DNA of 64,000 bases, taken from the IMG/VR virus record IMGVR_UViG_3300028610_000987, positions 1-64,000 of that record; one strand, written 5' to 3'. Positions 9,990-38,697 of this stretch are shown piece by piece. Numbering within the stretch: the stretch's first letter is position 1; each line of letters opens with the position of its first letter. Below the pieces are notes generated by a model. It did not search any database. It saw only the letters and a program-made list of their open reading frames with translations, and had not been told where the DNA came from. This stretch comes from a virus. Position numbers and translations under genes: made by a program.

Positions 9990-11774
9990 CTAACTACCAC
10001 CTTTCGTAGTATCGCACACTCCACTTGGGCAATCATTCACTGCCGCCTCTTCCGCCATTTGTTCCAAATATTCATTAGCTTCGGACAAGGGCAGTGGAAT
10101 CAAAGGTGATTCGCCCTTACTCCCATCCTGGTACACCGTGATTCCCTTCAATTCGCCTATGTACTTCCTCATATCTCTCGACAACTGTTCGAAAGTATAG
10201 CCTTTCGGCAAATTGATTGTCTTAGAAATAGAATTATCTATATGCTTTTGACAAACCGCTTGCATAGCAAGATGTGCTTCTGGTGAAATGTCATGAGCAC
10301 CCTGAAAATGTTTTATAGACTTGCGTTTTGCCAAAAAGCTTTTCAACAATGGATGAACAACAACCTCCATGCTGCCAGTTTTAGAAACCTTATCATGAAT
10401 ATCTTTGTGTTCATTGAATCGTCTCTGATAAACAGGTTGAAACAACGGCTCTATACCAGAAGAACAACCAGCCACAATAGAAATTGTACCCGTTGGGGCA
10501 ATCGTCAATAGGGCACAATTGCGAACACCATGTTCTTTGATCAGTCTATGAAGTCTTCTTGTTAAGCATCTGCGAGCAAATCCAGTCTTGGTATGCTGAT
10601 CAACATCAAATGCATGGAACGACCCCTTCTTAATAGCGAGAGATATGCTTGCGTGATAAGCCTGCTTTTTCACAAAATCCATCACCTTGTCGACAACGTT
10701 TCTAGCTGCTTGGCTAGAATATTTCAGATTAAGTTCCAACAGCATGTCATGAAGTCCCATGACTCCCAAACCTATTCTACGAAACTTTTGACACGTCTCT
10801 TGGATTATGGGCATGGGATAATTGTTCTGGTCGAGTACGTTATCCAAAAACCTGACGCTCATCGCGACTGTTTCTTCGAGCAAATCCCAATCAATCTCTC
10901 CGTCTATTACGTGCGTATGGAGATTCACTGCCCCAAGACAACAACAGTCGTATGGTGGCATCCAAATTTCACCACAGGGGTTAGTACTAACCAGTTCATG
11001 CCGATAGGATATCGTATTCATGACGTTCGCAAAACCTATGTTCAACAATCCAGGGTCTCCATTCTTGAGGGCATTCTTAACGATTTTGTCCCAAATATCC
11101 TGAGCGGCTATTTTACCTCGTTCTTCACCTTGCCACTTGAAAACCACATCTTCTCCGTCGTCTAGTAGCTTCAAAAAGACATCATCTATCAGTACGGATA
11201 TGTTGGCATTACTGAGTTCGTTGTTGTCTAGTTTCGCTTCTAAGAATTCCATCAAATCCGGGTGATCATATTTGAGACAAAACATGAGAGCCGATCTTCT
11301 GCCGCCGCCTTCTCTAAGTTCATTACAGACAGAGTTGATTGCTCGCATGAGACTAACCGCGCCGGTAGCCTCACCCCCCGTACCACGGATAAGAGAACCT
11401 CTTGGACGTACTTTTGAAAAGTTGATTCCGACTCCACCACCAGTACCAGAGATAATTGTAACTGCTCTGAGTGCATCTCCCCACCCCTCTCTAGAGTCTA
11501 AATCGTCTGTCCATACGAAACAATTCAACATCTGTCCCCTTCTGCGTCCTGCCCCTCTCCATATCCTTCCGCCAGGAGAAAAACGATTTGTCTGTAGGAT
11601 ATCTAGAAACCTAGCGCAATATTCATCTCTCTTGGTTCCCATTTCTGCGTCAGATATCGTCCTAGCAACTCGTTCGCACGCCTGTGTAAACGTTTCTTCA
11701 GCGTGAATAGCGTACCTATCACGAAAAATCTTCAGCGCAAATCCATGCGGTTCGTACTTCTGAACAACACTCAC
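9990..11774 (-). CDS. nrdJ: class II (adenosylcobalamin-dependent) ribonucleotide reductase
   Basis: 594 residues. Active-site residues: LNCFV (C85), NPCGE (C267 and E269), CCLGAVNL, APTGTIS, and a C-terminal CPSGVC redox pair. No radical-carrying R2 subunit is encoded nearby and the size fits B12-dependent NrdJ, so the enzyme would make deoxynucleotides without oxygen dependence, using host cobalamin. GTG start overlaps the HD-protein stop (GTGA) with GGGGG nine bases upstream. Confidence 0.92.
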   Translation of the reverse strand: MSVVQKYEPHGFALKIFRDRYAIHAEETFTQACERVARTISDAEMGTKRDEYCARFLDILQTNRFSPGGRIWRGAGRRRGQMLNCFVWTDDLDSREGWGDALRAVTIISGTGGGVGINFSKVRPRGSLIRGTGGEATGAVSLMRAINSVCNELREGGGRRSALMFCLKYDHPDLMEFLEAKLDNNELSNANISVLIDDVFLKLLDDGEDVVFKWQGEERGKIAAQDIWDKIVKNALKNGDPGLLNIGFANVMNTISYRHELVSTNPCGEIWMPPYDCCCLGAVNLHTHVIDGEIDWDLLEETVAMSVRFLDNVLDQNNYPMPIIQETCQKFRRIGLGVMGLHDMLLELNLKYSSQAARNVVDKVMDFVKKQAYHASISLAIKKGSFHAFDVDQHTKTGFARRCLTRRLHRLIKEHGVRNCALLTIAPTGTISIVAGCSSGIEPLFQPVYQRRFNEHKDIHDKVSKTGSMEVVVHPLLKSFLAKRKSIKHFQGAHDISPEAHLAMQAVCQKHIDNSISKTINLPKGYTFEQLSRDMRKYIGELKGITVYQDGSKGESPLIPLPLSEANEYLEQMAEEAAVNDCPSGVCDTTKGGS

Positions 11775-18407: not shown

Positions 18408-19868
18408 TTACTTACCATCCTCTATCTCGTAGGACAATTTTACACCTTTGAATTCAGAAGGCAATATAACAGCTAACTGATCAATAACCCTCTGCCTAAG
18501 ATCAACAGCTATGTCAAGAACGGTTTTCAATTCTTCTGCCTCAACAGTCATCGAGGTTCTGTGTGGGAACACCAATTTCAACAATCCTGATCCTATCCTT
18601 AGAAGAGAACGTTGATTACGCTGTGACATATCTCCGAATGTAACGTTGTGTAAAATTACATTTGTGTAATTCTTGTCTCTCATCCGATGCATAATTTCGC
18701 TTATGTAGTCAGCCATGAATCCATGCCCTTTGGCTAATTTCGATTCACGAATTTGAGGAATCCTCCACCCCGGAATAAAACCATGGATACGGTCCAAGAA
18801 TGCGCGATCTCTACTGACCGCTTCCGGCAATGGCTGAAACAGATTTCTATACCGAGCCGATACCGTTCCCTTGCCCCTATCACAATCAATATTACCTGCA
18901 AACATTATTGAGCAACCAGACGCGAACTCAGCGGTACCTCTTCCAAATCGACCAGAGTTCATAAAGTCTTTCAACATATCGATCAAATCGCCGTGGCCAG
19001 ACCACTTGTTTCCTACCCTACTATTTGCGAACTCATCGAACATAACGCAATCTCGATATCCGACCAAACCCAGTTGTCTTCGTAATTTGTCATAGAACAG
19101 AGATGCGACAGTAGTTTGTCCACCGGATATTACAAATCCATGAGAACTAAGAGACTGGTATGCAAAAGTCTTCCCTGTTTCGGGAGGCCCTAGCTCTACC
19201 AAATTGACATTAGATTCGACGAACGGGACCAATCGTACAACGTACAACATTTTTTCTTCTAGTGAAAGCTGACCTGGATCGAATCCGATACTGGTAATCA
19301 TTAGGTCCAACCATTCATCGTGACTAAACTGTACTCGACGATCTATCCATGAATCTAGGTCTATCGTTGTGATCTGGATAGGCTTAAACTCCGTTATGAC
19401 AAACGGGTACAATTTATTCCTCATAATGAAAGAATCGTCGTAAGCGATTTTGAATACACCCCAAGCACCCGTCGTTAACAGAACCTCTCCGTATTCTTCT
19501 ATTAAAATCGGGTCAATTCTGATAAACTGATTGCCCAGTGACGTAACATCTACCCAATATTCATCTCGCCCCTCATCAAGACGACAACGAATGCGACCAA
19601 TCAAGGTATACTCGCCATCTTCCCTGATCCGACTTTTGATCCACTCCTTCTTGTCTGAGTCCATAAAGTGATCATCCAGAAGTTTGCCGATCCTCTCTAA
19701 GCCAACGCTCGGATTGGATACATCTACCATCTCGGCAACCAGATAATCGATAACAAACGTCGGAAGCTTACGGAACTGTTCGTTGAGATAGGCAATACTT
19801 TTATCTATCACAACCCCATGTTCGCTGAAGACACTCAAAATCTTCTGTTTTGTATCAACTTCGGCCAT
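18408..19868 (-). CDS. BrxL-like AAA+ ATPase lacking the Lon protease domain
   Basis: 486 residues. Walker A GPPETGKT (227-234), ISGGQTTVASLFYD (248-260), Walker B CVMFDE (274-279) and FAGNID (323-328) match the ATPase of BrxL, the Lon-related protein of BREX defence. BrxL proper is near 680 residues with a C-terminal Lon protease domain; here the protein stops after the ATPase lid. BrxL has been shown to form rings on DNA, so this may be a DNA translocase or a BREX antagonist. Neither other BREX genes nor a methylase PglX are present. Confidence 0.75.
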   Translation of the reverse strand: MAEVDTKQKILSVFSEHGVVIDKSIAYLNEQFRKLPTFVIDYLVAEMVDVSNPSVGLERIGKLLDDHFMDSDKKEWIKSRIREDGEYTLIGRIRCRLDEGRDEYWVDVTSLGNQFIRIDPILIEEYGEVLLTTGAWGVFKIAYDDSFIMRNKLYPFVITEFKPIQITTIDLDSWIDRRVQFSHDEWLDLMITSIGFDPGQLSLEEKMLYVVRLVPFVESNVNLVELGPPETGKTFAYQSLSSHGFVISGGQTTVASLFYDKLRRQLGLVGYRDCVMFDEFANSRVGNKWSGHGDLIDMLKDFMNSGRFGRGTAEFASGCSIMFAGNIDCDRGKGTVSARYRNLFQPLPEAVSRDRAFLDRIHGFIPGWRIPQIRESKLAKGHGFMADYISEIMHRMRDKNYTNVILHNVTFGDMSQRNQRSLLRIGSGLLKLVFPHRTSMTVEAEELKTVLDIAVDLRQRVIDQLAVILPSEFKGVKLSYEIEDGK

Positions 19869-22028: not shown

Positions 22029-22223
22029 TTATGGATTGAATGTCTTACCGATAGTTGGGTGTGTCATAATATCATCCTCAATCATGATCCTTAATCTGGC
22101 TTCATAATTATCTAGAGCCCTTTTACTGATACGAGTCAGTTTGTCTTCCATCCCCGGCCTCATGGCTGCAAGTTTGGCTCTTATAAACACTTTGATCTGA
22201 CTTCTATTAAGAAGATTGGACAT
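22029..22223 (-). CDS. 64-residue helical protein, possibly histone-fold-like
   Basis: Starts MSNLLNRSQIKVFIRAK and continues with one long amphipathic helix (about 27-53) and ends GKTFNP. The first helix, long helix and K-T loop resemble the first two helices of bacterial single-domain histones, but a third helix is missing. The resemblance is from memory and weak. TAATG-type junction with the DUF2997-like gene. Confidence 0.55.
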   Translation of the reverse strand: MSNLLNRSQIKVFIRAKLAAMRPGMEDKLTRISKRALDNYEARLRIMIEDDIMTHPTIGKTFNP

Positions 22224-22429
22224 TATATTCCTCCGCGTTGAGTGTTTCTTTCTCTGGTCACGCGACGTTGTCGATATTCTGGCTTGTCTGTGTGAGACAC
22301 ATCTGTTCCCAAAACTTCTTCTATCTCAGATAGAAATTTGGCACATTCTGGTCCCACAAACCCCTTACCTTCTATGGAACAATTACCATCGGGGTCGATA
22401 TTAATAATGACTTCTTTTTGTCCTCTCAT
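22223..22429 (-). CDS. DUF2997-like protein
   Basis: 68 residues. EVIINIDPDGNCSIEGKGFVGPEC followed by KFLSEIEEVLG has the features of DUF2997, small proteins encoded with DUF1257 and AAA proteins in cyanobacteria and phages. Here DUF1257- and Ycf46-like genes are 3-7 kb upstream in the same direction. Role unknown. Confidence 0.65.
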   Translation of the reverse strand: MRGQKEVIINIDPDGNCSIEGKGFVGPECAKFLSEIEEVLGTDVSHTDKPEYRQRRVTRERNTQRGGI

Positions 22430-23043: not shown

Positions 23044-23205
23044 CTACCTGATAACCTCGACACTCTTGACTGTCACATCCTGAACGTCTACCTCGTCGCA
23101 ATCGTCTGGCCAAAATTCCATACCTTCAAGTTCCTCTACTCCGTCGACATTGTCTGTCTCGGTCGTGGTTACTTCAAGTGTGATTTTATAGTGTCCTTTT
23201 TTCAT
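23044..23205 (-). CDS. small acidic protein
   Basis: 53 residues beginning MKKGHYKITLEV; acidic, alternating beta pattern. AGGAGG stands eight bases before the ATG, one of the strongest ribosome sites in the window. Confidence 0.65.
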   Translation of the reverse strand: MKKGHYKITLEVTTTETDNVDGVEELEGMEFWPDDCDEVDVQDVTVKSVEVIR

Positions 23206-23449
23206 AGTGCGTACCTCCTGGCGAAAATGCCTCTATTTCCCACTCAATTGCCTTTTCCCTGTTGGGATTCGTGTGAAGGACTTTACCGTTCAAAGACAAT
23301 ACTTCCCACGTTTGCTCTGTCTCGTTGAATTCTACGTTCGACGCCTTGTGGATATCCGTCACTAGACCGATCGCGAACAGATTGACATCGTCTGTGTATA
23401 GACAATGGACATCTCCGTTCTGATCGATATCAAGTGTTATCGTTTTCAT
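23186..23449 (-). CDS. conserved phage-type small protein
   Basis: 87 residues from the ATG after CCAGGAAC. The pattern MKTITLDI...GDVHCLY...KASNVEF...TWEV is one that recurs in small phage proteins of unknown role (recollection of family, not tested). Confidence 0.65.
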   Translation of the reverse strand: MKTITLDIDQNGDVHCLYTDDVNLFAIGLVTDIHKASNVEFNETEQTWEVLSLNGKVLHTNPNREKAIEWEIEAFSPGGTHYEKRTL

Positions 23450-23450
23450 G

Positions 23451-23738
23451 TTAGTTCCTGGAACATCGACTTGCATCTTCTTTTATTTCCTTTCTTACTC
23501 TCGCGACAGCTTCTGCGATTGAACCTGCTGTTGGTTTTTTCTTTTGCTTGTCTTTTTCTATGAGATAGAGGACTCTGGCTTTGAAGCACCAATAGATTAT
23601 TGATGCGACCCAAGAACAACCCCAGACACAGAATACGCCCAGTGCTATCTTCCAAGACAAGATAAGACACCCTAGACTGATCACAAAGCCGCCACCGAAA
23701 AGCCAGAATGCCAACATATACTGTCCAATCTTCTTCAT
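23451..23738 (-). CDS. membrane protein, two spans
   Basis: 95 residues: two hydrophobic segments (9-30 and 33-52) then a basic helical cytoplasmic tail. Lies just below the IMPDH/GMP reductase gene. Holin-like topology is possible but not specific. Confidence 0.65.
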   Translation of the reverse strand: MKKIGQYMLAFWLFGGGFVISLGCLILSWKIALGVFCVWGCSWVASIIYWCFKARVLYLIEKDKQKKKPTAGSIAEAVARVRKEIKEDASRCSRN

Positions 23739-23740
23739 CT

Positions 23741-24751
23741 CTACGATCCCCTTGGTAAGGTTTCCTCTATCGACAAAGGACTAACGAGTACGTAGTCCAC
23801 ATTCTCACGTAAGTCAACAAAATTCATCGCACCACCCATGGCGAGACCAGACTTGATTCCCATAACGTAGTCCTCAATGACCTTTTCTGTCCTGCCTTTG
23901 TCCTCCATCTCTATCTCGATACCTTCTGGTGCTATATCCGGCCTACCAGAAGCCGCACGGCTACTCATGCCTCGATAGAGACGTTTATCCCCAATCCTTG
24001 GGGTTGCTCGTGTACCAGCCAACATGTATCCGATCATACACGCATCAGCGCCAGCCCATATTGATTTTACCATGTCTCCACTGGTTCGCAATCCTCCGTC
24101 TGCAATAATTGAAACTCCATATTGGCCACTTACTACTTTGCATGTTTCTTGTATTGCAGAAAATTGTGGGACGCCGAATCCTGTGACTATTCGTGTGGTG
24201 CAAGCAGCGCCTGGGCCGATACCAACCTTGATCGCATCGACTCCGTGTTGGGCGAATTTGATTGCTGCTTCGGGAGTGCAGACATTACCAGCCATGAGTG
24301 TGAACGGATATTTCTCTCTCACCCTAGATAGAGAATCGATAGTTTCGTACATTTTTACGTGGTCGCCGTGTGCCACGTCGATACAGATGACGTTGCAGCC
24401 AATATCTGCCAGCATCTTTACTTTGTAAGGTATTTCTCCTTTCAACCCTATTGCGCATCCAACGTTTTTGGCACCCTGGTCACGAGCCCATTTGATTTCT
24501 TTCATTTGGGTGTCTAGTTCTGTACGGTCGTCCAGGTTGATATGTCGGGTCAGGATACCTAGACCGCCCATCTTATCCATGACTACCAACATGTATTTTC
24601 CTGTAATAGAATCCATAGCCGCAGAGATGAGTGGTATTTTTAGCTCCACTGATCCTATCTTGGTTGCAGTACTTGGTGAAGTTCTAGACCCAAGGGTTGA
24701 GTAGTGCGGGACAAGCAAGATATCATTGAAACACAGTTTGCGCTCTTTCAC
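23741..24751 (-). CDS. IMP dehydrogenase / GMP reductase family enzyme
   Basis: 336 residues, no CBS domains. The catalytic loop GIGPGAACTTR (with the Cys that forms the covalent purine intermediate), IADGGLRTSGD and YRGMSS are present. Length fits GMP reductase, which returns GMP to IMP, rather than full IMP dehydrogenase, but residues seen cannot separate the two. It would shift the purine pool during phage replication. Confidence 0.85.
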   Translation of the reverse strand: MKERKLCFNDILLVPHYSTLGSRTSPSTATKIGSVELKIPLISAAMDSITGKYMLVVMDKMGGLGILTRHINLDDRTELDTQMKEIKWARDQGAKNVGCAIGLKGEIPYKVKMLADIGCNVICIDVAHGDHVKMYETIDSLSRVREKYPFTLMAGNVCTPEAAIKFAQHGVDAIKVGIGPGAACTTRIVTGFGVPQFSAIQETCKVVSGQYGVSIIADGGLRTSGDMVKSIWAGADACMIGYMLAGTRATPRIGDKRLYRGMSSRAASGRPDIAPEGIEIEMEDKGRTEKVIEDYVMGIKSGLAMGGAMNFVDLRENVDYVLVSPLSIEETLPRGS

Positions 24752-24760
24752 TGACTTCTC

Positions 24761-25141
24761 CTAGAGTTGTACCCGTCTAACAGACGAATGCCTTCTTTTT
24801 TCATTGGAATTTTTATTGATTGGCTTTGGCTTGGTTATGTAAACCCGACTTATGTTATCTACGGTATTTGAGAGTGTTTGGTTTTTACACATTTCGAAAA
24901 ATTGTTCTGGACTTATCAGGTCTATGTCCATTTCTCGGGCCTTTTCTGCTTTTTGAGACTTGCTGTTCGCATCAGCTATCACCAAGATTGTTGTGGATTT
25001 TGTTATGGATGCTGTTATTGAGGCTCCAGCCTGTACTGCTATGGCCGTCATTTGGTCACGAGGTTTTGGAGACTTGCCAGTGAAACAGAATACTGCGCTT
25101 TTCAAATCTCCAGTATCTTCGTTTAGGAATTGAAGTGCCAT
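24761..25141 (-). CDS. stand-alone BRCT-domain protein
   Basis: 126 residues. AVFCFTGKSPKPRDQMTAIAVQAGASITASITKSTT and DLISPEQFFEM are the strands and helices of a BRCT domain as found at the C-terminus of bacterial DNA ligases. No ligase domain is attached; a basic tail follows. Possibly a phosphopeptide or DNA-end binder. Confidence 0.8.
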   Translation of the reverse strand: MALQFLNEDTGDLKSAVFCFTGKSPKPRDQMTAIAVQAGASITASITKSTTILVIADANSKSQKAEKAREMDIDLISPEQFFEMCKNQTLSNTVDNISRVYITKPKPINKNSNEKRRHSSVRRVQL

Positions 25142-25142
25142 A

Positions 25143-25667
25143 TCAACGATACCCCGTTACTCTGATGGTTTGGTGTCCATTTGCTTCTCGAACTCTAGCG
25201 ACAGTACGACCATAAGCCGCCATTTCTTTTTCGACAGCATAAAACGCACAGCTTCCCTTGAGGTGACCTATCCATTGAGCGCCATATTTGTCAGAATCGA
25301 ATTCTGAAATCAGAGCCTCATAAGTTCCGTCATCTTTCTTCACGAATCCAATATCATTAGCGCTATTGCCTACATATACTCGACGGATGATGATGTGGGC
25401 TACTTCTGCTCGTTGATCTCCGTGGTAACCGAATAAGTGCTGTGGGTCGCTGTGGACTTCTATCTGGGCTTCTGTCCAGTTCCCCGTCTCCATCAGAGCC
25501 TTGAATAGTGAGCTACCATCTTTGAACTGCGTCTTTACTGTGCAATAGCGTGAGATAACTTTCTCCTTCATTTTTGTATGGGTGTTGTCAATGATTTTCG
25601 CACTGACCATCCCAGAGTGACCAATCTGTGCCATAGGGCTTTCTGACCTATGTTTGTTTCCCACCAC
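25143..25667 (-). CDS. DUF1257-like (Ycf35-like) protein
   Basis: 174 residues from a GTG. The core, from about residue 38 (SRYCTVKTQFKDGSSLFKAL) through AHIIIRR, NDIGFVKKDDGTYEALISEFD and a C-terminal IRVTGYR, follows DUF1257. The start is unsure: family members begin near residue 33, but no upstream ATG has a good ribosome site. Belongs with the DUF2997- and Ycf46-like genes. Confidence 0.7.
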   Translation of the reverse strand: MVGNKHRSESPMAQIGHSGMVSAKIIDNTHTKMKEKVISRYCTVKTQFKDGSSLFKALMETGNWTEAQIEVHSDPQHLFGYHGDQRAEVAHIIIRRVYVGNSANDIGFVKKDDGTYEALISEFDSDKYGAQWIGHLKGSCAFYAVEKEMAAYGRTVARVREANGHQTIRVTGYR

Positions 25668-25788: not shown

Positions 25789-25976
25789 TAAGATTCCTCC
25801 TTTATTACAAACTGGAACCTCATTCCATTACCAGTGTCGAATTCGTCAGGTAAACCATTTTCCAATTGTTCCTGGAGATTTTGAATCAACTTACCTGCCT
25901 CTTTCTTGCTCATGAAGACTTTTGTCAACGGTGTGAAGATGGTTTTTATGCCGTTCTGGAATATTTCTACTTTCAT
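25788..25976 (-). CDS. hypothetical small protein
   Basis: 62 residues, MKVEIFQNGIKTIFTP start, helical middle; ATG overlaps the stop of the Cys/Asp-rich gene. Not recognised. Confidence 0.65.
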   Translation of the reverse strand: MKVEIFQNGIKTIFTPLTKVFMSKKEAGKLIQNLQEQLENGLPDEFDTGNGMRFQFVIKEES

Positions 25977-26950
25977 CGACTACACGCTTTTAACCATCTT
26001 GCACGAGCGAATGCATTCATAGGACGAAAAGTCTGATAGACATTTTCGTCGTCAAATTCATCGGTATCGATATCAGGATCGCCCATACATCCACCACTCG
26101 TAGCGAGGCAATCACAGTCGGTGCATATTTCCTGACATTGGGTACAGTAGCCATCTTCGTCCCAGCATCCACATGTGGTCGAGTCCATACCGCATCGAAG
26201 ACAGTCGTCGTCGTCGAGATCATCATCTTCGTTGCAGATACAGCAACTGTTTTTCTCGCAACATGTCAAACAATTATCATAGATATCTTCGTCGTCGTCG
26301 TCGTCGTCGCAAACACAGTCAAAGCCATGACAATTCTCGCACATGTTTTCACATGTACAGTTTCCGTACAGATTGCAACACCCGTCACAATATGTATTTT
26401 CTGTGTCTTCACCTATGATTCTGACTGCCGCCAATTCTACAATAAAACGAGGAACGTCTAGTTGCGGGAATTCTGATGGATGTCTTTTAAGAGCAGCCTG
26501 AGCACCACCTTCTATTCTGTTATCTAGGCATGTGAATAGTTTGTCGTCTAGTTCTATTTCGTTATGGTTAGTCCTGTATCCTAGACAATACGCCCTGCCA
26601 CTGTGATAGCAACCTCCAAGTTTGACCTTAGACGTATCTACTTCGATACTCAGACATAATGCGGCCATGTTTTCTTTTGTTGCTGGTACTACATCGTCAA
26701 TGGTTAGTTTACAGAATTCGCCACCGAGGAAGAATAGTTCTTTTCCAGGTTTTGGAGCGGCGCTTACAACTCGACCTTTTGGAAGGATATAGTCGTACAT
26801 GAATGTACCATTTGATTGATGTTCCCAATACACGAATTTTGTTGTTGACTTATCGCGGCCAGTGACAAAACAAACATGTTCTTCCCACTTTTTGCTCTTG
26901 TCGTCTGAATCAAATCTAGCGATAGCTAGTTCACAATTCTTTGCATTCAT
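25973..26950 (-). CDS. Cys/Asp-rich multi-zinc protein
   Basis: 325 residues. An N-terminal folded part (1-175) is followed by about 100 residues with more than 25 cysteines in CxxC pairs interrupted by Asp tracts (DDDDDDE; DDDLDDDD), then a short basic helix. It probably binds several zinc ions as a protein-interaction surface. The same style of tail is seen on the E2-like protein at 36934-38271. Sits between DUF3150-like and DUF1257-like genes. Confidence 0.75.
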   Translation of the reverse strand: MNAKNCELAIARFDSDDKSKKWEEHVCFVTGRDKSTTKFVYWEHQSNGTFMYDYILPKGRVVSAAPKPGKELFFLGGEFCKLTIDDVVPATKENMAALCLSIEVDTSKVKLGGCYHSGRAYCLGYRTNHNEIELDDKLFTCLDNRIEGGAQAALKRHPSEFPQLDVPRFIVELAAVRIIGEDTENTYCDGCCNLYGNCTCENMCENCHGFDCVCDDDDDDEDIYDNCLTCCEKNSCCICNEDDDLDDDDCLRCGMDSTTCGCWDEDGYCTQCQEICTDCDCLATSGGCMGDPDIDTDEFDDENVYQTFRPMNAFARARWLKACSR

Positions 26951-26962
26951 TTCATTTTTCTC

Positions 26963-27973
26963 CTAGAGAATTACTCTACGTTTCAGTTCGCCAATAAATT
27001 TCGATCCGCTTTCACCTTCTGCCGCAGCTTTGCTCCTGATTGCCTCTAAGGCATCGGATACACTATTCTTAACCGTAGCAGACTCAAAGTCTTGTGGACG
27101 GATACCTTCGTCAAGGAATGTGTTTCTGAAGTCAGACAGCATCTTTTCGATATCTTCGTCCTCGAATATGTTCATGGAACGGAATCTGTCGACATACTTT
27201 CGGAAACATGAGATAGATTTTGGAGTCAACTGCTTGCTTTCTTCTTCGTCTCCGAATGGTTGTCCGTTGATTCTGGCAGTCATTAACTCACAGAATCGAA
27301 CGGTTTCGTCTCTCATGGACGTTACGTAGTCTCCGACAAATTCTCCAACGGCGTCTCTCATCTGAATACGTAGTTCTGTTTCTCTTTCTGTCTGCACCTT
27401 TTGCTTGGCAACCACCTCTTCGACGCTGGTTTCTTCTATAGACCCAAGACCTGCTATCTGGAATGTGTACCAATCAAACTTGAAATGTTCTCTCAGGGCT
27501 TTCGGATTGCGGGGATAGTGACCTTTCAAACACTTATCCCAAAAATCTGGGTGTGCCGATTTGACAGCTTGTGTCAGGTCGTCGAACCGCAAGATGAAGC
27601 TGTCGACCCTCTTGAAGAATTCTTCTTTTAGTTCTTCTATTTCCTGCTCTACGCTCAGCAACATGGTGGATGGAACAAAGTGTGCGTTTGCTATCCCGAA
27701 CGGCACACTCCATCGTTCGAGCGCCTTACGAGCACGTTGTTCAATCTGGGTCAGAGCCTGAAGTTCCGTCTTTGGAACCATCAATTTCCTTCCTAGATTG
27801 ACAATTTCTTTGGGGAGTGCATCCGGATCATATCCGACACGGACAAGATCGGCGCGGGTCAACATTTTCCTTCCGCTCCACATTTTTATACTCAGGTTGA
27901 CTAGACAACCAACGTCGAAAAGATTGATAGTGTCTTTATCAACCTTTGGTTGGTCTTTGGTCACTGTAGCCAT
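26963..27973 (-). CDS. DUF3150-like protein
   Basis: 336 residues. VNLSIKMWSGRKMLTRADL at 30-50, PKEIVNLGRKLMVPK, and the helical RARKALERWSVPFG segment fit DUF3150, a family usually encoded next to MoxR-type or other AAA ATPases in phages and plasmids. Here it directly follows the Ycf46-like ATPase by 18 bases, so it is a likely partner or substrate adaptor of it. Confidence 0.65.
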   Translation of the reverse strand: MATVTKDQPKVDKDTINLFDVGCLVNLSIKMWSGRKMLTRADLVRVGYDPDALPKEIVNLGRKLMVPKTELQALTQIEQRARKALERWSVPFGIANAHFVPSTMLLSVEQEIEELKEEFFKRVDSFILRFDDLTQAVKSAHPDFWDKCLKGHYPRNPKALREHFKFDWYTFQIAGLGSIEETSVEEVVAKQKVQTERETELRIQMRDAVGEFVGDYVTSMRDETVRFCELMTARINGQPFGDEEESKQLTPKSISCFRKYVDRFRSMNIFEDEDIEKMLSDFRNTFLDEGIRPQDFESATVKNSVSDALEAIRSKAAAEGESGSKFIGELKRRVIL

Positions 27974-27991: not shown

Positions 27992-29548
27992 TTAGCTTAA
28001 TACGACCTTCCGTTTGTTTGCTTGCGAATTCTCTTCCGAACACGGATTGGCGGGTTTGGCATGTAGCTTGCACCATTCCCTGATAATCTCGATACGTTGT
28101 GCCTCTGTTTTGGATAGAGGAACAATCTCTGAAGTAGCTTGAGCTATGTGTTTTCCTGCTAACTCAACATTGTTCGCGAATGACATTTTGAGTGCGAGTT
28201 TGATGATTTGTTCGATATCTGCTCCCGTATATCCATCGGTAAGTTTGGCGACTTTGGTGATGTCGTAATTTTCGGGTTTTCTGTCCCTCCGAGATAGATG
28301 GATACGAAAGATTTCTTCTCGTTCATCAATTCTCGGAACATCTAACCCAAATATCTCATCGAATCTACCTTTGCGACAGAATTCGGGTGGCAAGGATTGT
28401 ACTTGATTGGCGGTGGCGACAACGTAGACAGGAGAATTCCTATCGCTTAGCCATTTGAGGAACGTTCCGAATAACCGTTTAGACGATCCACCGTCATGAT
28501 CTCCAGAGCCGCCGAAACCTTTTTCAACCTCGTCGAGTTGCAAGACGCAAGGAGCTATGCCTTCCATCATCTTAATGGCTTCTCTCATGTTCTTTTCTGA
28601 CTCACCAACGAATTTGTTCATAAGATTGCCAACGTCCATGGCAATAAGGGGAAGTCCTAGTTCGGATGCAATCGCTACAGACAGTAGTGTTTTTCCGCAC
28701 CCAGGTATTCCGACCAATAAAATTCCTCGTGGGAATTCTATTCCGTAATCTCTTGCTTTTTGTGTGAAGCACGGTTTGTCTAGAGAGATGTGTTGTTTTA
28801 GCGCGTCGTATCCTCCGACATTATCCATACCACCTTCTGGGGGTTCTATATATGTCAATAATTCTGATGCACGAATAATCCCAGCTTTTTCGTCGACTAT
28901 CGTTTGAACCGCATCTAAGTTCAAGTCTTTATGTTTACGGAGAGCTAGTGCCACGCGGTCGGTTGTTTGTTGTGATGTCATACCCCTACAGGCATCTACC
29001 ACTTGTGGAACGATATCTTCGTCGAGTTCGAAGTCTGAACCATCGGATTTCTCAACACCATCACACACAAACTCAATGCGTTCTTTGATTTGATCGCCAT
29101 CCGGTAAATCAAACTCAATTCGTGTTATATCGTGCAGTAGTGGCTTCGGTGTGTCAAAGTCTGGTCCGACGAAGACGATTGTTTGGTTAACTGACGATAC
29201 GATTTTCCGTAGTTGATCCAACCAGCTTATCACAACATCATAAGTTGGATAAGTTTCGTGTTTCAGGTATCCGCCAAAGTCGTTAAGGATAAGGATTATG
29301 TCGTTGGGGAATTTCATGATTGCTTCAAGGTGTTTTTCGACCGATGCTTCAGGCTTCAAGTCGCAAACAGATACTTGATTTTTATCAACCCATCCCTGCG
29401 CAATTGTCCAGATGTAAATTTGTCGGTCTATGTTTTGCGCAACTTCTTCGATGGAAGCTATAGCCCTGTCTTTTTCGAATGTATCTACTCGTAGCAGTGC
29501 ATGGCCAGAGCAGATGTAATTGCTAATTGCCTCATTGAAATTTTGCAT
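27992..29548 (-). CDS. Ycf46-like AAA+ ATPase
   Basis: 518 residues. N-terminal domain (1-235) with HALLRVDTFEKDRAIASIEE and RQIYIWTIAQGW like Ycf46; AAA module with Walker A GIPGCGKT (280-287), Walker B CVLQLDE (334-340), sensor VVATANQ and arginine finger region CRKGRFDEIF (391-400). Predicted protein remodelling ring. ATG at 29548 chosen for AGGAG six bases upstream; an in-frame start 41 codons earlier would overlap the previous gene. Confidence 0.85.
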   Translation of the reverse strand: MQNFNEAISNYICSGHALLRVDTFEKDRAIASIEEVAQNIDRQIYIWTIAQGWVDKNQVSVCDLKPEASVEKHLEAIMKFPNDIILILNDFGGYLKHETYPTYDVVISWLDQLRKIVSSVNQTIVFVGPDFDTPKPLLHDITRIEFDLPDGDQIKERIEFVCDGVEKSDGSDFELDEDIVPQVVDACRGMTSQQTTDRVALALRKHKDLNLDAVQTIVDEKAGIIRASELLTYIEPPEGGMDNVGGYDALKQHISLDKPCFTQKARDYGIEFPRGILLVGIPGCGKTLLSVAIASELGLPLIAMDVGNLMNKFVGESEKNMREAIKMMEGIAPCVLQLDEVEKGFGGSGDHDGGSSKRLFGTFLKWLSDRNSPVYVVATANQVQSLPPEFCRKGRFDEIFGLDVPRIDEREEIFRIHLSRRDRKPENYDITKVAKLTDGYTGADIEQIIKLALKMSFANNVELAGKHIAQATSEIVPLSKTEAQRIEIIREWCKLHAKPANPCSEENSQANKRKVVLS

Positions 29549-29549
29549 C

Positions 29550-29813
29550 TTAACTCCTTTTTTTGTTGAGGGATTCCATTTTTTCGACGGTAGTAGCCAA
29601 GTTGTCCACAATGTGTCGAGGGACCATGACGAAAGCTGTAGGAATAGAAGGATTGTAATCTTCGACACCAAGCAAAGAATGAGCTATGGCAAGAAGCTTT
29701 TCTCGTTCTCTCCATATACAACTTGGGCATCTCCAACCTTCTCCATACATATAAAGTCCACATACAACTGTACAAGTATCGCACTTGATGTTTTTGACTT
29801 CATCAGGATGCAT
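29550..29813 (-). CDS. zinc-finger protein, unknown
   Basis: 87 residues; CDTCTVVCG and CPSCIW form a zinc ribbon, followed by a helical tail. AAGGA is six bases before the ATG. Immediately upstream of the Ycf46-like gene. Confidence 0.7.
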   Translation of the reverse strand: MHPDEVKNIKCDTCTVVCGLYMYGEGWRCPSCIWREREKLLAIAHSLLGVEDYNPSIPTAFVMVPRHIVDNLATTVEKMESLNKKRS

Positions 29814-35075: not shown

Positions 35076-35735
35076 TTACTTTGCCCCCATCTCATTTGTG
35101 AGCAGATTCAAATCGATATCTTTGTCGACCGGATACCCACGAAGCCATTGGGCGAATTGTGACACCATGATTCCTGCTGCGACATTGGAACAGTAGATAG
35201 TCGACTTGGCCGTACATGGGCCTTGGTACGCTTCTGACGAGGGGAACAGTGTAGTGGAATAGTGTTCGCGAGATGCATCGTCGTGAACAGTCAGGACTCT
35301 GAGATACTCTGCACTCATCCTACCATCGACGAAAAAGTCTGCCCTTTCGATGATTGAATTGAAGATTTGCTTTCGAGTCTCTATTCCATCGACACAGCAG
35401 AAAAACGCACCGACTGTAAACTGCAATGACCTAAACTTTCGATTTGCAGTATACACCTCGATGTCTGGGTTGATAGCTCGACATACGTCGGCCACGGCTT
35501 CGACCTTGGGTGTACCAATGTCTGCCGGATAGAAGCCCTGTGGGGCAAGATTTTCCACCTCCACGGTGTCGAAATCTATGAGTTGAATACTCGGAGCGCC
35601 GATAGCTGCAAGCTGCAATGCTACTTGACGACCAATAGCGCCAACACCCACCACCGTAGCTGGCATCTCCAACAGCTTATCTGGCGGAACCAATTCCCTT
35701 TGTCTCACATCTCTGTCTGCAAGATCATTCGTCAT
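35076..35735 (-). CDS. ThiF/E1-like adenylyltransferase
   Basis: 219 residues. Rossmann loop GVGAIG (30-35), acidic pair DFDTVEVENL (54-63), Lys77, CVDGIETRK (114-122) and PCTAKSTIY with Cys174 correspond to the ATP, metal and possible thiol sites of ThiF/MoeB/E1 proteins. It would adenylate the C-terminus of the ubiquitin-like protein encoded at 38406. Part of the Ubl - E2 - JAMM - X - E1 operon. Confidence 0.88.
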   Translation of the reverse strand: MTNDLADRDVRQRELVPPDKLLEMPATVVGVGAIGRQVALQLAAIGAPSIQLIDFDTVEVENLAPQGFYPADIGTPKVEAVADVCRAINPDIEVYTANRKFRSLQFTVGAFFCCVDGIETRKQIFNSIIERADFFVDGRMSAEYLRVLTVHDDASREHYSTTLFPSSEAYQGPCTAKSTIYCSNVAAGIMVSQFAQWLRGYPVDKDIDLNLLTNEMGAK

Positions 35736-35937
35736 TGTTATCCCCTTTCTCGTCTGTCACCTCTACTTCAACGTAATCCCCGAAGTTCCTTTTTGCTATT
35801 AGGAAGTTATCGTCTGGCCATTGGCGGACAATGATCATATCCCCATCTTTGGCGAACTGACCTGCTTCCACCATTTCCCCGTCTTCTGCTGGACGAATTT
35901 TCAATAAGTCTGTCTTTTGCACCCACTTCTTCGCCAT
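35725..35937 (-). CDS. small protein between JAMM and E1 genes
   Basis: 70 residues from an ATG that shares bases with the JAMM stop (TAATG). Beta-rich (DMIIVRQWPDDNFLIAKRN) with an acidic end (TDEKGDNNDE). Its fixed position suggests a conserved component of the system; not itself a clear ubiquitin fold. Confidence 0.65.
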   Translation of the reverse strand: MAKKWVQKTDLLKIRPAEDGEMVEAGQFAKDGDMIIVRQWPDDNFLIAKRNFGDYVEVEVTDEKGDNNDE

Positions 35938-36917
35938 TATGCTGTCGCCTTTCTCCACTCAGGGCGACAATACGCATTCTTTTTTGCCCAATACCTGATC
36001 TTTTTGTCAAGTCCTTCTTTGTCTGGAGAAGCACAAGGCTGGAAGTCATCTTCACTTTCTAGTTGCCATGTGTCGTTGTCCGGATTGTAATAGTATGAAC
36101 AATCTTCTCCCTTGTTGGCGATAAAGCATACCACATCACCATCTAAATCCCAGTAACAATCCATCTCGTCGATCATCTCGTTGAACTCTAGCTTCTGCTT
36201 TTCTTCTGGCGTGACAGAAATCCATGCAGAATCGTAGTCATCCCACCACTGAGAGCTATTGCCCGACCCAGTTTGACGGGTAGCTCCCAATTCTTCTTCG
36301 AAAATGTCGAGAAGAGGGGCATCCGGAATAAGACGCTTTCTTTTTCCTTCTGCGCCAGTCATATGGAAGCTCGTCTTCTTGGAGACCTTTGCTTTGTACT
36401 CATTTTCCCATTCTGTAGGATTTGAGCCGTTGAACGGAACTCCATATTCTATTACCACATCTAATAGACTAATAGTGCCCGGCCCTGTGTTCATCTTCAG
36501 GCGACAGTACGCGCTGCCATCTTGGCCAATGATCAACATGATCGCCCAGTTAGGATGAGAAAACGCTTTTTCGAAGTTTTTCTCATCGACGAAAGATGGG
36601 TCTGTAGAATTCCCTGGATGGGTGTGTGCAAGAATGTTCATACATTGCCATGGTGCGAGACCTTCGTCCATCATGCGCTCTACGTATTCTGCGCTATCGT
36701 CTGAATCAAGATCGAATGTGACTATGGTACATTCTTGTTTGATCAAGACGAAGTCTGTGATCAACAGGGGGTCAGATGTTTCTGTGACACAATATCCAGC
36801 GACTTCTGTGTTGCCCTTGTCCCTCATCCAGATAAGTTTTGCCCAGGCATATGGCGTCAACTTCAGTTGCTTGCCAAACGTAAGTCGCGGTTTGCAAAAT
36901 TCCTGTTCTTTTCCCAC
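35937..36917 (-). CDS. JAMM/MPN metalloprotease-like protein
   Basis: 326 residues. Glu38 and the exact JAMM motif HTHP-x6-SFVD (His98, His100, Ser108, Asp111) form a zinc isopeptidase site like those of Rpn11 and archaeal/bacterial deubiquitinases. A C-terminal extension (200-326) is Trp/Tyr/Asp-rich and unknown. GTG start, AAAGG seven bases before. It would remove or mature ubiquitin-like tags. Confidence 0.9.
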   Translation of the reverse strand: MGKEQEFCKPRLTFGKQLKLTPYAWAKLIWMRDKGNTEVAGYCVTETSDPLLITDFVLIKQECTIVTFDLDSDDSAEYVERMMDEGLAPWQCMNILAHTHPGNSTDPSFVDEKNFEKAFSHPNWAIMLIIGQDGSAYCRLKMNTGPGTISLLDVVIEYGVPFNGSNPTEWENEYKAKVSKKTSFHMTGAEGKRKRLIPDAPLLDIFEEELGATRQTGSGNSSQWWDDYDSAWISVTPEEKQKLEFNEMIDEMDCYWDLDGDVVCFIANKGEDCSYYYNPDNDTWQLESEDDFQPCASPDKEGLDKKIRYWAKKNAYCRPEWRKATA

Positions 36918-36933
36918 ATCGTTACCTTTCGTT

Positions 36934-38271
36934 TTAGTTGTTTACTTCTGCCAGCAAACAGTTGTGCTCTTCTTTGCATGACGAACACATAGACACACCA
37001 CAATGATCACACGAGTTATCGATACAGTTTGAACACATTTCTTTGTCACATGATGGACAGTGCTTCAGGCACAAACTACAAGCATGTTCTCCACATTCTT
37101 CACATATTGTGAGACAATTATCACAATGTGAGTCTCCACAATGGCAACATTCCCCGAGGCACTCATGACACACTTCGTCGTCACACTCACAAGACGTAGA
37201 GCATTCTTGACAAGAACGATTACTGCATTGAGCACATTCTTTTGTGCACTTTTTGCAATAGGAGTTTTGGCAACAACTACAAGATACGGTACATGATTTA
37301 CACATTGACTCACCACAGCCGTTACATCCATTCATACACTCATCACAATGCCACTCATCGCAACTGCTGCATTCGTCGATGGTGCCACAATCTCGACATC
37401 GACTGACTCCACACCCAGAACAATAGTAGATGATTTCGTCTGAATACCATTCTTCACATATGTCGCAAAGTGATTGACCATCTCTGTCTGGATCGTACCA
37501 GTCGTTAAGTGGCTCATAAGGAGAATCCTCGTTGTATGTGCGGACGATTGCTTCGACTATCCGAAAGTAATCTTCAAGCCTTCCTTGTCTTAGGGCGAGT
37601 TGCATTATGTCGCCGCCATCACCCTCGCAGAGTTGACCATCTTTTACATGAGGATGACAGTATCCACTATTTCCTTCTATTGGACAGACAGCCTCTACGA
37701 GAAGCCCATAAATCAGACGATCGTCGTCCTGAACCCCTTTGCCCATAGGATCGTCAAGGTTGACACGCAAGATGAAATCGCCAAGGTCTACTGCTTCAGT
37801 GCCGTCGTCGAGAGACACATTGCCAATGTTTACGGATAAAACCCCCTCTCGGTATGTGACTTTATCCCATGCATCATTGATAATAGTCAGTTCCTGAATT
37901 GCTTCCTTGACTCCGAGTGGTTCACAAACTTCGTCGCTCACCATAGATTCCATTAAGGCTGTGCATTTGTCCAGGGCGACTACCATGGTGTTTCTTAGGT
38001 CTGGAATCATTTCGTTGGCTATGTCGGCATACACCTTTGGGTTCGGAGTACCAATATGCCTTGCGGTCATTGCCCCTACTTCGACCTGAACACGAGGTGT
38101 CATCCCCGCCATGAAACGCTTGGTCCATTTCCCAAAAATCCTTGACCTTACTTCGAGCCATTCTGTGTAGTTTGCTATCCTTTCTCGATATTCAGATATT
38201 GGCTCAAGAGCATTTTTGTGCATCCAATTGCGGTAATGATTGGCGGCACGAACTACAAGTTTATCCTTCAT
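36934..38271 (-). CDS. E2-like conjugating domain fused to a Cys-rich (RING-like) tail
   Basis: 445 residues. Residues about 110-255 contain CHPHV-KDGQLCEGD (His206, Cys215) followed by YNEDSPYEPLNDW, the HPH...C layout of bacterial E2-like proteins. From about 268 to the end there are over 50 cysteines in CxxC pairs, a set of zinc knuckles that may work like RING domains. Thus conjugating and ligase-like parts appear joined. The N-terminal 110 residues are basic and helical. Assignment is by motif and operon context, not structure. Confidence 0.7.
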   Translation of the reverse strand: MKDKLVVRAANHYRNWMHKNALEPISEYRERIANYTEWLEVRSRIFGKWTKRFMAGMTPRVQVEVGAMTARHIGTPNPKVYADIANEMIPDLRNTMVVALDKCTALMESMVSDEVCEPLGVKEAIQELTIINDAWDKVTYREGVLSVNIGNVSLDDGTEAVDLGDFILRVNLDDPMGKGVQDDDRLIYGLLVEAVCPIEGNSGYCHPHVKDGQLCEGDGGDIMQLALRQGRLEDYFRIVEAIVRTYNEDSPYEPLNDWYDPDRDGQSLCDICEEWYSDEIIYYCSGCGVSRCRDCGTIDECSSCDEWHCDECMNGCNGCGESMCKSCTVSCSCCQNSYCKKCTKECAQCSNRSCQECSTSCECDDEVCHECLGECCHCGDSHCDNCLTICEECGEHACSLCLKHCPSCDKEMCSNCIDNSCDHCGVSMCSSCKEEHNCLLAEVNN

Positions 38272-38353
38272 GGTTGATTCCTTGTGTCAGTCCACCCATT
38301 TCGGCTTGTTTGGTTGCGAATTTTTCTTCTGTCATCGGAAGAACCTCTCGCGG

Positions 38354-38386
38354 AAAAAAGGAGGGGGACATTTCTGCCCCCCTCCT
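38354..38386 (-). terminator. strong terminator between Ubl and E2-like genes
   Basis: Minus strand GGAGGGGGG...CCCCCTCC stem with six Ts. It lies between the ubiquitin-like gene and the rest of the operon, so the ubiquitin-like mRNA would be more abundant than the enzyme mRNA. Confidence 0.88.
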
Positions 38387-38405
38387 AGCACGTAGCACCA
38401 CCTGA

Positions 38406-38636
38406 TTAGGCTCCGTCAACCTTCACAGGTGCAAGACTTACACGATCACCTTCGCAGAGAACGTAATCCCGGTGTGCCTCGACCGAGGTTCCATTCGCTC
38501 GTATACGAATCGTGAACTCATCCGGGTCACCATCGAAGGCAATCTCCAGGAACTTCTCCAGGGTCGTACCTTCTACGACTGGAGTCTTGACTGGTAGCCC
38601 AGCGCCCCCATTATGAACCAAAGTCACGTTAATCAT
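38406..38636 (-). CDS. ubiquitin-like (ThiS/MoaD-type) beta-grasp protein
   Basis: 76 residues, beta-grasp pattern: MINVTLVHNGG strand, TTLEKFLEIAF helix, EFTIRIRANG strand, then LCEGDRVSLAPVKVDGA as in MoaD/ThiS C-termini. The tail ends Gly-Ala rather than Gly-Gly. Start ATG at 38636 is six bases after GGAG; another ATG is one codon before. With E1, E2-like and JAMM genes downstream it is the likely modifier. Confidence 0.8.
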   Translation of the reverse strand: MINVTLVHNGGAGLPVKTPVVEGTTLEKFLEIAFDGDPDEFTIRIRANGTSVEAHRDYVLCEGDRVSLAPVKVDGA

Positions 38637-38697
38637 CATGATCTCCCTAAAAATTGGACTATTGTCCATTCCTCAAATCGGGACAGATGAACACCAT

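Follow-up and report, generated by a model that had tools for sequence, protein, structure and literature searches.

Most of what is known about ubiquitin-like (Ubl) protein conjugation in prokaryotes comes from anti-phage defence in bacteria. Predictions of Ubl operons in bacteria go back to 2006 (PMC1779556), and the described Bil operon encodes a two-domain Ubl modifier (UBL), an E1 activating enzyme with two adenylation domains and a Cys domain, and a CEHH-type E2 conjugating enzyme (PMC11354881). Here, we describe a related operon on a virus. The stretch of DNA analysed, called the window throughout, spans positions 1-64000 of a linear virus record of 119,625 bp (IMG/VR record IMGVR_UViG_3300028610_000987), and since terminase and portal genes are present at ~92-97 kb of the record, it is that of a tailed phage. 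Adjacent genes in the window encode a UBL, an E2-like protein, a JAMM metallo-isopeptidase and an E1-like enzyme, an assignment borne out by profile matches, by the predicted fold of the UBL and by conserved residues. On balance, we lean towards the reading that this four-gene cassette is a Ubl conjugation system of the phage and works in concert with an AAA+ unfoldase, to which reversible tagging would feed substrates.

In order of transcription, the genes encode the UBL (38406-38669, 87 amino acids (aa), a ubiquitin-like beta-grasp modifier with the end ...KVDG-A), the E2-like protein (36934-38271, with the conjugating enzyme at residues ~115-260 and a C-terminal Cys-rich domain at 263-445), the JAMM/JAB metallo-isopeptidase (35937-36917, 326 aa), a small open reading frame (ORF; 35725-35958, 77 aa) and the E1-like activating enzyme (35076-35735, a single adenylation domain of 219 aa), all on the minus strand. 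An in-frame ATG at 38636 is an equally plausible start for the UBL and gives 76 aa. A gap of 16 nt separates the E2 gene from the JAMM gene, and the small ORF overlaps both the JAMM gene and the E1 gene. The initial annotation had treated these five adjacent ORFs as one system, and while all five are present on one strand as described, the small ORF had no match in Pfam, and tblastn against the fetched loci, close relatives included, gave nothing meaningful for it. We rejected it as a component because it has no counterpart in close relatives; it probably lies outside the system, and the core set is thus four genes rather than five.

The locus differs from each of the characterized systems that it resembles. 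Bil (BilABCD) is likewise a four-gene UBL/E2/JAMM/E1 operon with trimming of a UBL precursor, but unlike Bil, the window has a single 87-aa UBL, a 219-aa one-domain E1 and an HPx...C E2 with a Cys-rich tail. The PADLOC BilD model gave a partial match to the window E1 (6e-5), and identity with Bil was rejected given the single-domain UBL and the one adenylation domain of the E1. Cap2 of the cyclic-oligonucleotide-based anti-phage signalling systems (CBASS) fuses E1 to E2 in one protein and conjugates cGAS, whereas E1 and E2 are separate genes in the window. Models of E1-E2 fusions matched the window via their E1 part only, CD-NTase had no match among the scanned neighbours (a scan that covered part of the window ORFs), and CBASS type II was rejected because the window has no Cap2-type fusion. 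PRTRC-like operons, which we take to be type 6d of Iyer 2006, share E1, E2, JAB and (in 6d) UBL partners with the window; their identity with it was also rejected, as the ThiF match scored 31.5 bits against a cut-off of 144.75 and JAMM, E2 and UBL were without a PRTRC match in NCBIfam. Finally, the Ub-E1-E2-RING-RPN11 operon of Caldiarchaeum subterraneum resembles the window in its UBL fold and its JAMM protein, both the nearest among solved structures, and in its combination of an E2 with a Cys-rich E3-like part. In Caldiarchaeum, however, the RING protein is a separate small gene, whereas the window has a multi-CxxC domain fused to the E2 and a proteasome gene was not seen in it.

The AlphaFold2 model of the UBL (pLDDT 86) has the element order EE-H-EEE of a predicted beta-grasp, and its top fold match in the PDB is Caldiarchaeum ubiquitin (7e-4). 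G86 is invariant (45/45 sequences), the next residue is Ala in 41 of the 45, either as the last residue or with up to 12 more behind it, and the tail after the Gly comes to 1-13 residues in total; the tails vary, while the G(A) junction is constant. In two phage loci, the UBLs (L016 3308-3922 and L017 3183-3845) extend after KGA into a conserved long C-terminal domain with a YC.RMGC motif, possibly a built-in cleaved partner. The variable tails past G(A), together with this long extra domain, indicate that the UBL C-terminus is probably trimmed. As the C-terminal residue of CBASS cGAS proteins is Gly or Ala (PMC10097602), an Ala-ended modifier is also possible.

The E1 matched the ThiF family in Pfam (PF00899, 3e-25), and its profile matched UBA6, UBA5 and MoeB in the PDB. 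The protein is a single short adenylation domain and has neither a separate Cys domain nor a ubiquitin-fold domain. Across 163 aligned E1 relatives, G30, G32, D54, D56, N62, Q66, K77, D116, R121, R139 and C174 were conserved at 98-100%, with D116, R121, K77, N62 and C174 at 99-100%. In UBA5 and ATG7, the crossover loop within the adenylation domain carries the catalytic Cys (PMC12355090), and from its sequence context we infer that C174 is the putative thioester Cys, placed as in those enzymes. By itself, the window JAMM protein matched Pfam weakly (Prok-JAB, 1e-3), and the nearest solved relatives of an 11-sequence JAMM profile were archaeal and eukaryotic RPN11-type proteins (1e-9). E38, H98, H100, S108 and D111 were invariant in the 11 proteins, down to 15% identity to the window JAMM. 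The intact JAMM ligands and E1 loops reported in the initial annotation are upheld by conservation in relatives. A JAMM gene lies within 4 kb of the E1 gene in 67/69 phage loci, these being the loci with enough sequence for a neighbour count, and in 46/50 genome loci.

In the E2-like protein, H206, P207, C215 and G217 are invariant in 53 E2 sequences and also in 21 very diverged ones, among whose cores H, P, C and G are the sole invariant residues. When a profile of these 21 cores was compared with the PDB, 59 of the 60 best matches were ubiquitin-conjugating enzymes, and in the top one (E 0.015) the catalytic Cys is aligned; although the E-values are individually modest and the matched E2 entries are relatives of each other, such specificity would be hard to explain in another way. 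The structure model shows a helix, four strands, the HPH...Cys segment and two helices, which is the UBC order, so that the predicted fold of the UBL and the predicted element order of the E2 both agree with the original assignments. Residues 263-445 hold 45 Cys in a 15-residue period with 20 CxxC motifs, a composition suggesting that this domain probably binds zinc. Its weak RING/FYVE/PHD similarity is maybe composition-driven; versions of the tail are kept in the relatives L012, L013, L014 and L090 and in planctomycetes, and it is a candidate for a built-in E3 or docking domain. For the E2, the initial annotation was incomplete, as the protein is fused to this large Cys-rich domain.

Scanning viral contigs with a profile gave 204 relatives of the E1, of which the best 80 were fetched as loci; many of the phage E1 loci have an E2-like gene with the motif H[PS]H...C.G upstream. 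In GenBank, 88 phage records carry an E1 relative (crAss-like, Flavobacterium and Xanthomonas/Erwinia jumbo phages), often annotated as a thiamine biosynthesis protein, and these homologues are probably misannotated conjugation enzymes. The same search made with the E2 protein gave no match among GenBank phages, and the distant phages were reached via E1 only. Like the window, the crAss-like, Flavobacterium, Xanthomonas and Erwinia loci have an E2-like gene, mostly a JAMM gene, the same gene order and a UBL-like candidate upstream, although no JAMM gene was recognised in the Xanthomonas phage locus; unlike the window, their E1 is 27-33% identical and an AAA block was not noticed.

Close relatives came from a scan of bacterial and archaeal genomes, which gave 80 loci with an E1 45-64% identical to that of the window, nearly all in Planctomycetota. 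These operons (for example L137 of Neorhodopirellula pilleata, L144 of Rhodopirellula maiorica and L172) have the phage's four-gene order, UBL-E2-JAMM-E1, and the same kind of Cys-rich E2 tail. In the tree, the window E1 groups with L002, L012 and L090 in a subclade (Shimodaira-Hasegawa-like approximate likelihood ratio test, 98), inside a planctomycete-rich clade, and a planctomycete host is plausible for the window phage. The catalytic residues of E1, JAMM, E2 and UBL are invariant or nearly so across 10-65% identity. As for the suggestion that the phage version may be a distinct type, it is not Bil, CBASS or PRTRC, but given its close relatives in Planctomycetota and hundreds of distant ones on other viral contigs, it is not a phage-only type. 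A passage in a 2014 review mentions ubiquitylation operons in Planctomycetes (PMC4197634), and the planctomycete branch may partly have been described already; our literature search, incomplete for subscription papers and bioRxiv, returned no paper on phage-borne sets, on a crAss-ubiquitin link or on the AAA/DUF link.

L090 (CP070695.1, 47.5-93.9 and 151.2-173.0 kb) lies in a record deposited as the chromosome of a 'Candidatus Heimdallarchaeota' metagenome-assembled genome, which was put together from contigs with 100-N gaps between them. Two or more of these contigs come from a phage colinear with the window virus, with up to 85% protein identity. In view of the 100-N joins and these phage contigs, the record looks misbinned, and we rejected an Asgard host on the same grounds. 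In this related phage, the terminase (G001:C1:67546-70881) is an open frame of 1144 aa split by an in-frame insertion of ~1.2 kb, which is likely to be an intein.

What we consider the best clue to function, overlooked in the initial annotation, is a set of linked AAA+/DUF3150/DUF1257/DUF2997 genes. When the window genes were searched against the cassette loci, an AAA+ ATPase was found to recur beside the cassette. This Cdc48/PAN-type protein (27992-29671, minus strand; AAA 7e-29, AAA_lid_3) has CDC48 as its best NCBIfam match (3e-35), CDC48 and PAN being closest and both under their cut-offs, and a homologue lies near the cassette in ~25 loci, including the phages L002 and L012. We take the window ATPase to be Ycf46-like, and Ycf46 presumably belongs with DUF1257 and DUF2997. 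In cyanobacteria, DUF1257 (ycf35) and DUF2997 adjoin each other (PMC4284462). Also on the minus strand, the window encodes a DUF3150 protein (26963-27973; PF11348, 8e-22), a Ycf35-type DUF1257 protein (25143-25667; PF06868, 4e-6), a homologue of smA, a small conserved protein of the planctomycete operon (23186-23476; tblastn to L112, L121, L124 and L129), and a DUF2997 protein (22223-22429; PF11211, 1.2e-9) of the same family as in the planctomycete operon. The smA family is present in 25 loci. The window phage has the cassette order plus AAA, DUF3150, DUF1257, DUF2997 and smA on one element.

Neighbour clustering gave the planctomycete order AAA-DUF3150-smA-smB-UBL-E2-JAMM-E1, with DUF1257- and DUF2997-type genes farther upstream; a DUF1257-like gene is found in operons L172, L174 and L175, the L172 copy at 0.014, under cut-off. 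The linked genes are contiguous with the cassette in the planctomycete operons, whereas in the phage the two form blocks 5-6 kb apart. In a sample of 294 planctomycete genomes, nine genomes contained 16 full E2 copies, six of them in one genome; by counts from the listed coordinates, a UBL gene was adjacent in 16/16 and DUF3150 lay within 4 kb in 13/16. The cassette and DUF3150 co-occurred in 7/9 genomes against 0.5 expected (p = 1e-8, uncorrected for phylogeny). Two further window genes lie among those of the ATPase block. A stand-alone BRCT-domain protein (24761-25141, minus strand; PF00533, 4e-11) adjoins DUF1257, and its homologue stands in the same order in the phage relative L090. Between DUF3150 and DUF1257, a Cys- and Asp/Glu-rich protein without a family match (25973-26950) is a possible partner of the ATPase block. 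In several Phycisphaerae loci (L106 1644-2633, L117 and others), the place upstream of the cassette is taken not by the AAA block but by a DUF2958 gene together with a family of small, repeated genes.

We propose the following mechanism, of which the tagging chemistry is well supported by the sequence comparisons. The JAMM protein would trim the precursor of the UBL, cutting behind its invariant Gly or the next Ala; the E1 would then adenylate the UBL C-terminus and take the UBL onto C174; it would next be handed on to C215 in the E2, and the Cys-rich tail fused to that enzyme may dock targets in the manner of an E3; and targets would be tagged, probably on lysines, with the JAMM protein able to take the tag off. 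These four steps are proposed because the active sites are intact and strictly conserved and because of the gene order. In a fifth step, suggested by operon linkage only, the Cdc48/PAN-like ATPase and its DUF3150, DUF1257 and DUF2997 partners may recognise tagged complexes and remodel them or pull them apart. Candidate targets would be host factors of defence or replication, or factors of virion assembly, and the role that we favour is host takeover or complex remodelling.

Several observations weigh against this mechanism. For the E2, single-sequence searches of Pfam, NCBIfam and GenBank phages gave no match for the window protein, single E2 sequences produced one UQ_con match in Pfam (0.22), and Foldseek with the full-length model returned zinc-finger-type PDB entries via the zinc part only, without recovering the E2 fold, and weak matches among viral structures. 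For the ATPase step, the linked genes in the phage lie 5-16 kb from the cassette, the AAA block itself ~5-6 kb off, and neither a protease gene nor a proteasome gene was identified next to the cassette. Phycisphaerae and crAss-like loci are mostly without an AAA neighbour and several planctomycete genomes have DUF3150 without the cassette, so that coupling to the AAA protein is not obligatory.

The main alternative concerns the role rather than the chemistry and is compatible with either mechanism: the system could chiefly serve in counter-defence or superinfection, as a means to tag and inactivate defence proteins of the host or competing phages. We regard this as possible, if rather unlikely. 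The window contains a BrxL-like gene (18408-19868; PF13337, 2e-104), possibly with a counter-BREX or replication helicase role, and phage-borne ribonucleotide reductase and IMP dehydrogenase (PF00478, 5e-80) at 9990-11774 and 23741-24751, respectively. The BrxL-like gene and partial AAA matches that include the anti-phage ATPase IetA speak for such a role, as do the presence of the cassette on phages and its patchy, multicopy occurrence in hosts (9/294 genomes, six copies in one), a pattern resembling that of defence or mobile cargo. The E2 and UBL, however, matched no defence family, and the neighbouring replication and nucleotide genes fit a role in replication or takeover equally well.

Slightly more doubtful is the idea that UBL conjugation is real but that AAA+/DUF3150/DUF1257/DUF2997 is a separate system carried on the same mobile islands and phages, so that tagging alone would alter the targets. 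The cassette-free DUF3150 genes and the Phycisphaerae cassettes that adjoin DUF2958 instead speak for such independence, and CBASS tagging changes activity without an unfoldase (PMC10097602). The proximity of DUF3150 to 13 of the 16 planctomycete copies argues for a connection, as does the presence of several of the same partner families in the window phage and its relatives. We consider it improbable that the UBL carries sulfur as ThiS and MoaD do and, once activated by a ThiF/MoeB-like enzyme, serves phage metabolism or tRNA modification. The weak match of the UBL to ThiS (E 0.13), the ThiF match of the E1 and the thiamine annotation of many phage homologues point that way, but a JAMM gene adjoins in nearly every locus, an E2 with a conserved catalytic Cys stands beside it, and a rhodanese, ThiG or MoaE partner was not noticed among the neighbour families. 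Decay into a non-functional remnant of a host operon, to which the two blocks and the inserted unrelated small ORF might point, is hardly credible, since every reading frame is open with all catalytic residues kept, and since the related phages L002, L012 and L090 retain the system at 54-65% E1 identity, which indicates selection.

Returning to conjugation coupled to an unfoldase, a more ambitious and tentative version would be that phages encode a self-contained and reversible tag-and-unfold pathway, with a built-in E3, a Cdc48/PAN-like AAA+ protein and DUF adaptors, that has been exchanged with planctomycetes and remodels proteins in infection. If true, this pathway would be analogous to the eukaryotic ubiquitin-Cdc48/26S pathway, and cyanobacterial and plastid Ycf46, Ycf35 and DUF2997 would supply the ATPase half of a machinery that, elsewhere, works with a Ubl tag. 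With an E1 on 204 viral contigs, full Ubl machinery would be carried by phages at scale, often under the label of thiamine biosynthesis. For the unexplained DUF1257 (Ycf35), DUF2997 and DUF3150 families, linkage with a Cdc48/PAN-like ATPase provides a testable idea of their function, and the system may offer a bacterial and viral parallel to ubiquitin-Cdc48.

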